Shown: piece after piece, positions 14,729 through 17,021 of the stretch
Numbering within the stretch: the stretch's first letter is position 1
How the letters are laid out: each line of letters begins with the position of its first letter
Assembly: GCF_003427025.1 (NCBI RefSeq)
Contig: NZ_QVAI01000003.1
Location: 310,001 to 374,000 of the forward strand
From: Jiangella endophytica
Lineage (GTDB): Bacteria > Actinomycetota > Actinomycetes > Jiangellales > Jiangellaceae
Reading direction: 5' to 3'
DNA: 64,000 bases
Notes under the pieces: generated by a model
Seen by the model: only the letters and a program-made list of their open reading frames with translations
Told to the model about the DNA's origin: nothing
Databases searched by the model: none
Made by a program: the position numbers and the translations under genes

Positions 14729-15322
14729 GTTTCCTCCTTCGATCCCCGACCTCGTCGGCGTGACGTGCCTCGGCCGATCGCGGAATTCCGCTTTCAAGTC
14801 TCGCAGTGTGCGACGTTCGACCCACCCTGCAGGTTCCGATCGGCCCCGGCTTTCGCTTACCCGCAGAGCCTATGTCCACTCGCTATGCACGCGCATCCAT
14901 CCGAAGCGGACATTCGATGTTCGCCTGGCCTGGTGGGACGGTGTGTCGCGGCGCCCTCGATCTTGGAATCGGGGCGCGGCCGTGGCGAGTCGCCGCCGGG
15001 CCGCACCGCCCTCCTCCACCCGCGCCCGGCCGGGCGTTCCCCACTTCCCTCCACCACCGCGTCCCGCCGGCGGCCCCGCCGCGCTGAGCTGGGGTGACGC
15101 GCGAGCCGTTCGGCCGTCGCGGCCCGGCGAGCCGCCTGCGCCCCACAGCCGCTCCACCTCGCCTCCCACCGCGCTCCACCCCTTCGCCGGCGCCGTCCGA
15201 CGGTCCCGTCCATGGCGCTTCTACCAGGGCGGACGCCGGCCCGGTGGGTCCGTCCGCCCCGCCACGTCGCCGCCGTCCGGCCAGGCCCCTCGTGGGGCGT
15301 GGTGGGGCGCGATGGGGCCGAA
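14729..15322. other. Divergent intergenic region between moxR and mraZ
   Basis: Nearly 600 bases with no supported gene. It must carry the moxR promoter near its left end and the dcw promoter near its right end. Stretches of open frame are GC-driven and lack family similarity. The right border is the phased GTGG array listed next. Confidence 0.6.
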
Positions 15323-15388
15323 TGTGGTTGCAAGTGGGGGAGAGTGGAGTAGAGTGGCGGGCAGTGGAGGAAGAGTGGTCCGGGGTGG
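15323..15388 (+). promoter_or_regulatory. Candidate MraZ operator: seven phased GTGG repeats
   Basis: GTGG occurs at 15324, 15334, 15344, 15354, 15364, 15375 and 15385, i.e. every 10 or 11 bases, mostly as AGTGG. MraZ proteins from several bacteria bind short direct repeats of a TGG(G/A)-type motif spaced one helical turn apart just upstream of their own gene, and repress the dcw operon. The array ends about 50 bases before the mraZ start, the expected place. MraZ rings contain many subunits, so seven half-sites could be bound by one ring. Confidence 0.7.
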
Positions 15389-15440
15389 CGATCAGCGGAA
15401 GTTCCGGTGACGGTCACGGCGGACAGCGGGGAGGTGGGCC

Positions 15441-15872
15441 GTGTTCCTCGGCACCCACACGCCCCGGCTGGACGACAAAGGGCGGCTCATCCTTCCGGCG
15501 AAGTTCCGGGACGAACTGGCGGAGGGCGTCGTGATCACACGAGGGCAGGAGCGCTGTCTCTACGTGTGGCCGCGGGCCGAGTTCCTCCGGTTCACCGAGC
15601 AGTTGCGCGCCGCCCCCATCACGCACAAGGGCACGCGTGACTTCGCCCGGATGCTGGCCGCGGGGGCCAGCGACGAGGTTCCGGACAAGCAGGGCCGCAT
15701 CACCATCCCGCCGGGACTGCGTACGTACGCGGCCCTGGAGCGCGAATGCACCGTCGTCGGGGCGATGACGCGGGTGGAGATCTGGTCCGAGCAGGCCTGG
15801 GAGACGTATCAGGCGGAGAAGGAACCGATGTTCGCCGACATCTCCGAGGAGGTGCTGCCCGGCATCTTCTGA
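15441..15872 (+). CDS. mraZ: Transcriptional regulator MraZ
   Basis: A 143-residue protein made of two SpoVT/AbrB-like halves; each carries the D-x-K-G-R signature ([15 protein letters not shown] near residue 10 and [15 protein letters not shown] near 80). It forms a ring that binds repeats upstream of its own gene and tunes the dcw operon. The GTG start gives [15 protein letters not shown], the standard family N-terminus, with GGGGAGG upstream. First gene of the dcw cluster; rsmH follows after 174 bases. Confidence 0.97.
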
Positions 15873-16046
15873 CCGCCGTCGCGTGGAACGCACGACGAGG
15901 TCTCCGGCCGCTCAGTCACTTGACGCACCTTCCCCGGTGGCAAGAGACCAGAGCTGGCAAGCAAGCCCGAGCGGGCGGGGACCTGGTCGTACGAGCCGCG
16001 ATGGCAACAGCACTGTGAAGCAACGACGAGAGACGCGGGGGTGTCG

Positions 16047-17021
16047 ATGACTGAGCAGGGGGCGCACGTCCCGGTGCTGCTCGACCGCGTCGTCGAGCTC
16101 CTGGCTCCGGCTCTGGAGCCGGCGTCCGCGCCGTCCGAGGCAGGACGGCGTGTGGTCGTCGATGCCACGCTGGGTCTCGGCGGGCACGCCGAGGCCCTGT
16201 TGCGCCGCAGCTCCACGGCCCACCTGGTGGGCCTCGACCGCGACCGCGAGGCGCTGGCCCGGGCCACCGAGCGGCTGGCGCCGTTCGGCGACCGGTTCAC
16301 CGGCGTCCACGCGGTCTACGACCGGATCGCCGACGTCTTGGCGGGCCTCGGCATCCGGCGCGTGCATGGCGTCCTGTTCGACCTGGGGGTCTCGTCCCTC
16401 CAGCTGGACGAGGCCGGGCGCGGCTTCGCCTACGCACGGGACGCGCCGCTGGACATGCGGATGGATCAGTCCACCGGCATCACCGCGGCCGAGGTGCTCA
16501 ACACCTACGCCGCGGCCGACCTCGCCCGCATCCTGCGCCGCTACGGCGAGGAGCGGTTCGCGTCGCGCATCGCGGCGGCGGTCGTGCGGGAGCGCAAGCG
16601 GGCGCCGTTCGACACCAGCGCCCGGCTGGTCGAGCTGATCCGCGACACCATCCCGGCGCCGGCGCGGCGCACCGGCGGCAACCCGGCCAAGCGCACGTTC
16701 CAGGCGCTGCGCATCGAGGTCAACGGCGAGCTGGAGGTGCTCGAGCGGGCACTCCCGGCCGCCATCGACGCGCTCGCGCTGGGCGGGCGCATCGTCGTGC
16801 TCTCGTACCACTCGCTGGAGGACCGCATCGTCAAGCAGCTCTTCGCGGCGCGCTCGACGAGCACGGCGCCGCCCGGGTTGCCGGTCGAGCTGCCGGAGCA
16901 CCGGCCCGAGCTGCGGCTGCTGACCCGGTCCGAGCCGCCCACCAGCGACGAGATCGCCGCCAACCCGCGCGCGCAGTCGGCCCGGCTGCGTGCCGTCGAG
17001 CGGATCAGGGAGGTCGCATGA
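16047..17021 (+). CDS. rsmH: 16S rRNA (cytosine1402-N4)-methyltransferase RsmH
   Basis: RsmH (MraW) methylates N4 of C1402 in the ribosomal P site using SAM. The 324-residue sequence has the MraW SAM motif DATLGLGGH at 39-47, then [31 protein letters not shown] and, near the end, [15 protein letters not shown], all diagnostic. The ATG at 16047 is used because GGGGGT lies at a suitable distance; a GTG at 16041 in the same frame is possible. Its stop overlaps the ftsL start by 4 bases (ATGA). Confidence 0.97.

Follow-up and report, generated by a model that had tools for sequence, protein, structure and literature searches.

A putative, unusually long MraZ-type operator upstream of mraZ in Jiangella endophytica

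Introduction

MraZ is a widely conserved bacterial regulator that forms rings, and known MraZ operators usually have a few repeats; in Escherichia coli the MraZ boxes have a TGGG core and a 10-bp period. We know of no settled account of how the MraZ ring reads repeated half-sites or of what sets the strength of repression. In the window, that is, the whole 64,000-nucleotide stretch of Jiangella endophytica DNA analysed here, seven GTGG boxes lie directly upstream of mraZ, which raises the question of whether they form one enlarged operator or a short one set in G-rich DNA. The available passages of PMC8475190 describe MraZ boxes in E. coli, direct repeats of the form AAAGTG[T/G] in Mollicutes and the control by MraZ of its own cluster.

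An in-phase array of half-sites adjoins mraZ

Read directly on the plus strand, the seven GTGG boxes, here named R0 to R6 (Table 1), follow one another in steps of 10, 10, 10, 10, 11 and 10 bp. The count and spacing given in the earlier note are borne out by this reading and by shuffling, while its start at 15323 is one base early (15324) and the three GGGG tracts that stand upstream in the same register were missed. Seven is the longest GTGG chain with 10/11-bp steps between 15284 and 15440. In 20,000 dinucleotide-preserving shuffles of this region the longest such chain was four, found in 14 shuffles, and five, found in one shuffle, when 12-bp steps were also allowed. Elsewhere on the plus strand of the window and on its entire minus strand, GTGG chains with 10/11-bp steps did not exceed two; the minus strand holds chains of up to four if steps of 9-12 bp are allowed. 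A three-box pattern with at most one mismatch matched the window 7 times against 0.86 expected, with six of the seven matches in or beside the array. A search of Rfam at E up to 1 gave nothing over the array.

The GGGG tracts lie 10 bp apart, the last one 10 bp before R0, and because they share the register of the GTGG boxes about ten half-sites stand in phase. Three GGGG in register were obtained in 0 of 20,000 shuffles. An alternative reading of this upstream shoulder has GTGG boxes at 15292 and 15302, then ATGG at 15312 and a 12-bp step to 15324. The array as a whole consists of direct repeats with a G-rich core at about 10-bp spacing, the features by which MraZ operators are recognized, and it adjoins a true mraZ, whose start codon follows R6 after 52 bp.

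Table 1 Features of the mraZ promoter region and neighbouring genes in window coordinates.
Feature	Coordinates	Strand	Basis
GGGG half-sites 15294, 15304, 15314 (upstream shoulder)	15294..15317	+	In register with the GTGG boxes at exact 10-bp intervals
Box R0 (GTGG), 5' of the predicted -35	15324..15327	+	Comparison with relatives
Predicted -35 element TTGCAA	15328..15333	+	Comparison with the family and other loci
Putative four-box core operator: R1 15334, R2 15344, R3 15354, R4 15364	15334..15367	+	Comparison with other loci
Predicted -10 element TAGAGT, separated by 16 bp from the -35 and overlapping R3	15350..15355	+	
Box R5, GTGG, after the 11-bp step, in the predicted 5' leader	15375..15378	+	Comparison with relatives
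Box R6 (GTGG), within the predicted 5' leader	15385..15388	+	Comparison with relatives
Probable ribosome-binding site GGGGAGG	15428..15434	+	Read in the sequence
mraZ, 143 aa, GTG start	15441..15872	+	Pfam MraZ 2.5e-40, two stretches
mraW (rsmH), next dcw-cluster gene	16041..17021	+	Methyltransf_5 1.3e-110

The Pfam match confirms that the gene following the array is mraZ, as the earlier note had proposed. Its product contains two MraZ repeats, each with a motif of the D-x-x-G-R type; D11-x-K-G-R15 and D82-K-Q-G-R86 are invariant across seven aligned MraZ proteins, and the protein matches four distinct solved MraZ sequences in the PDB (best 2.6e-21). Among the named relatives in the best 80 of 578, MraZ is 96-98% identical in five Jiangella species and one Haloactinopolyspora. 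The divergent neighbour of mraZ encodes a MoxR-like ATPase (AAA_3).

Between mraZ and mraW, positions 15882-16004 of the plus strand match the mraW RNA motif RF01746 below threshold (35.4 bits against a gathering cutoff of 50, E 2.7e-5) and are possibly a diverged copy of this known element, which the accessible part of PMC3890552 lists as observed in C. glutamicum. Overall, 368 of 396 genomes have an MraZ match. All 11 sampled genomes (6-10 Mb) of one genus (g24, family f19) are without one, which looks like a loss of mraZ across the whole lineage.

Further members of an MraZ regulon were sought in the source genome with a four-box pattern allowing up to two mismatches. It gave 20 matches, four of them in this array, against 47 for a reversed control pattern and hence no evidence of further MraZ sites. 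The search thus yielded no credible second four-box target in the source genome, in keeping with a putatively local autoregulation.

A four-box core is interleaved with a predicted promoter

Upstream sequences from 169 loci, 150 of them unique, were aligned to the register of the operator; 132 of the unique ones lie outside the Jiangellaceae. Sixty regions were hand-picked from the matches listed, about one per genus plus some extra, and one locus (L054) with only 38 bp of upstream sequence was left out. The class sample was drawn from the best 80 of 578 relatives and so is weighted towards close relatives, Actinomadura and freshwater MAGs.

Among the 132 outside loci, NTGG occupies the places of R1, R2, R3 and R4 in 117, 125, 132 and 101, 82 have TTGAC directly 5' of the first box, and a TANNNT that overlaps the third is present in 128 (as in 21/21 family genomes), counts that are partly built in because the registering score rewards four boxes, TTG and TA. 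Hexamer letters beyond TTG/TA are unrewarded, and flanks beyond -12 and +34 lie outside the score. In the family, the -35 place carries TTGCAA in 19 of 21 genomes and the -10 place TAGAGT in 14 and TACAGT in 5. By our own count each hexamer of the source (TTGCAA, TAGAGT) matches the consensus at 4 of 6 positions; a generic promoter and terminator scan called no site at the array. As judged from sequence comparison, boxes R1 to R4 correspond to the four boxes that actinobacterial mraZ promoters usually have, and we read hexamers and boxes together as a predicted sigma70-type promoter interleaved with the operator, from which transcription would start near 15361.

Flanking boxes are kept to different degrees within the Jiangellaceae

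The boxes were compared in 12 Jiangella genomes, the source included, and in nine other genomes of the family; the 12 are assigned to Jiangella by named records, five of which match them at this locus. Within the genus, R0, R1, R2, R3 and R5 are GTGG in 12/12 genomes, R4 is GTGG in 6, ATGG in 4 and TTGG in 2 (thus NTGG in 12/12), and R6 is GTGG in 9; all seven boxes are GTGG in only 4 of the 12. The nine other family genomes have GTGG at R0 in 8, R1 in 9, R2 in 8, R3 in 9, R4 in 1 (ATGG in 8), R5 in 6 and R6 in none, which brings the family totals to 20/21 for R0 and 18/21 for R5. At the R0 place of the 132 outside loci, NTGG is found in 51 and GTGG in 17. One genome (G011) lacks R6 and has an R1-to-mraZ distance shorter by 31 bp, indicating that R6 is dispensable there and that this stretch is unlikely to be coding.

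Variable columns at the genus level amount to 5/28 in the GTGG boxes versus 8/37 in the spacers, with no difference between them (Fisher p 0.76), so it is the comparison between genera that speaks for R0 and R5. There, among the loci listed, the spacers change whereas R0, R5 and their steps stay, and two other genera retain R5 together with its 11-bp step despite a different spacer. Given the composition of the flanks, the shuffle probability is 0.039 for R0, 0.030 for R5 and 0.0003 for R5 together with R6. The earlier note had named boxes left free to mutate as an observation that would speak against its reading, and part of this is found, since the seven boxes are unequal in conservation: variation is seen in R6 and at the first base of R4, while R0 and R5 are kept.

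At the 15294, 15304 and 15314 places, 8/9, 9/9 and 11/11 readable genomes of the genus have GGGG, as do 5, 3 and 3 of the nine other family genomes. Across all 21 genomes, 40 GGGG starts between -52 and -13 fall in the operator phase, compared with at most 10 in any other phase. Three of the 12 same-genus assemblies (loci L014, L017 and L019 of G015, G008 and G007) end 121-135 bp upstream of mraZ, inside the phased G-tract block or at its edge; the block may be resistant to short-read sequencing.

Shorter arrays and upstream phasing are found outside the family

Outside the Jiangellaceae the GTGG run is most often four (76/132 loci) and at most five (2/132). Five of nine unique Jiangella sequences have a run of 6-7, and the other four have a strict run of four. 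If steps of 9-12 bp are allowed, two of the 132 outside loci reach six, and with NTGG cores at 10/11-bp steps three reach six and one reaches eight. The comparison of repeat numbers in related genomes that the earlier note had suggested therefore finds the same arrangement before mraZ, with fewer boxes outside the family, and agrees with its view of the GTGG boxes as putative MraZ half-sites in an array longer than usual.

A further count took in all contiguous in-phase boxes whose core is GTGG-like or GGGG-like. It gives 10 for the window, 9-11 for the nine same-genus genomes without a contig-end cut, 7-8 for the three that are cut and 5-10 for the nine other family genomes. In 54 dissimilar outside loci (<50% identity, with relatedness reduced though still present), the count is 4 in 21 and 5 in 22, so 43/54 hold four or five as opposed to the 9-11 of uncut Jiangella; at least seven are present in five loci, with a maximum of 8.

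In the same 54 loci, GTGG/GGGG-type half-sites follow the 10-bp phase of the core over the 50 bp that precede it. Of these loci 48 hold any such half-site, and the mean resultant of 0.54 was reached in 0 of 2000 rotations, whose maximum was 0.37. Such phasing was not seen in the outside loci at -63 to -92 or -93 to -142, nor downstream of the core outside the family (resultant 0.16). GGGG-type sites contribute most of the upstream signal, with resultants of 0.32-0.33 for NTGG or GTGG taken by themselves, and the mean phase of the signal falls short of the exact register by about one base. Under strict registering (score of at least 23, 41 loci) the phasing is weaker, still present. Trial periods of 10-11 bp fit best, yet all from 8 to 12 bp give p <0.03 (Rayleigh approximations). 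The control cores CCCC, GCGG and GGCG have no significant phase; TGGG does, as expected of a related core.

A perfect five-GTGG pattern occurs in 7 of 396 genomes of the phylum, and in two of them it lies at mraZ: the source genome (G000) and G613, which belongs to another class. The matched sequences in the other five genomes look repetitive in themselves and were set aside. G613 has NTGG at -96, -85, -75, -65, -55, -45, -35, -25 and -14 from the start codon, and the occurrence of this nine-site array in another class suggests that long mraZ-promoter arrays probably arose at least twice; for that class the reading uses only L198-L202 of 30 loci, several of the others having ends that are no start codon. 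By eye, the mraZ promoters of L200, L201 and L202 (family f91, as G613) have long 10-bp arrays that mix GTGG, ATGG and AGGG cores. Also by eye, and among the loci listed, six mraZ promoters of family f18 (L140, L153, L157, L171, L173 and L176) are without TTGAC and have GGGG/GTGG cores repeated at intervals of about 10 bp on the 5' side of the operator core; the first box of that operator core is 108-174 bp upstream of mraZ.

Discussion

The array can be regarded as a real, unusually long MraZ-type operator of an already known kind, putative as to binding. It is likely to be an enlarged autoregulatory operator in which weaker flanking sites surround a core that would overlap the predicted promoter. 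The four half-sites of the core are interleaved with the predicted sigma70-type promoter, so that bound MraZ would block RNA polymerase. In the Jiangellaceae, additional boxes in helical phase appear to lengthen this core at either end: R0 lies upstream of it, joined in Jiangella and some other members of the family by the weaker GGGG sites, and R5 lies downstream in the predicted 5' leader, followed in Jiangella by R6. The MraZ ring would likely nucleate on the core; as MraZ accumulates, the flanks may cooperatively recruit more contacts or a second ring and thereby tighten repression by degrees. The earlier note had proposed that a longer array could match more of the ring or permit graded control.

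The arrangement resembles that of E. coli and Mollicutes in that direct repeats stand directly upstream of mraZ. Unlike these, Jiangella has about ten phased sites instead of a few, flanking sites with unequal cores and an 11-bp step between R4 and R5. With the actinobacterial four-box operator the Jiangellaceae share the boxes and the interleaved -35-like and -10-like hexamers, and they differ from it in having mostly TTGCAA at the -35 place and extensions on both sides. One open-licence library yielded no report on MraZ-DNA structures or on operator length in actinobacteria, no paper for three newer MraZ entries in the PDB and one more code, and none on MraZ with TGGGN.

If only the four-box core were bound, R0, R5, R6 and the GGGG tracts would be neutral remnants or chance sites in G-rich DNA. 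Such a view agrees with the modal run of four and the missing downstream phasing outside the family, with the change or loss of R6 in 3/12 same-genus genomes and with boxes that are no more conserved than spacers within the genus. We nevertheless consider it rather unlikely, as R0 and R5 are kept across genera whose spacers have changed, the 54 dissimilar loci have phased half-sites upstream and the GGGG tracts persist while the DNA just 5' of them differs between genomes. It is far less probable that the array grew by recent slippage, with a duplicated 10-bp unit and an unstable length. Period-10 repeats are indeed scored at 15292-15318 (88% matches) and 15333-15378 (69%; 80% at period 20), but the spacers differ between units and are common to other species at the same place, and we find this explanation hardly credible.

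The upstream G-tracts might also form a promoter G-quadruplex, the 10-bp spacing being incidental. A G-quadruplex in the Staphylococcus aureus mraZ promoter is reported from reporter and in vitro assays in the available passages of PMC11796246. Here, G4Hunter gives 2.08 at 15293, among the highest values of the window (reached at 3 of 63,976 positions, or 7 counting both strands), and three of the 12 same-genus contigs end within or just downstream of the G-tract block. However, the pattern by which a promoter G-quadruplex was sought, four G3 tracts with loops of 1-12 nt, is absent from 15201-15460, and a G-quadruplex needs no register shared with GTGG boxes, which makes this reading very improbable. 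Those passages of PMC11796246 do not speak of MraZ boxes, so the S. aureus region may itself contain an operator, and the shared register may offer an alternative reading for G-rich mraZ promoters that have been described as G-quadruplexes. A further regulator, MtrA, binds the mraZ promoter in Dietzia according to the accessible part of PMC9602371.

Beyond the enlarged autoregulatory operator, we tentatively put forward a broader reading that is possible, though on balance doubtful. Actinobacterial MraZ operators would have a phased shoulder of weak half-sites in the approximately 50 bp upstream of the four-box core, which in the Jiangellaceae and, separately, in the family of G613 would have grown to at least nine sites holding two MraZ rings or a wrapped filament. 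The result would be a concentration-graded switch of the division operon rather than a simple autorepressor. Natural arrays of 4, 5, 7 and about ten sites in one register provide a ready test series for asking whether it is the number of sites that determines ring stoichiometry and a graded control of the division cluster.
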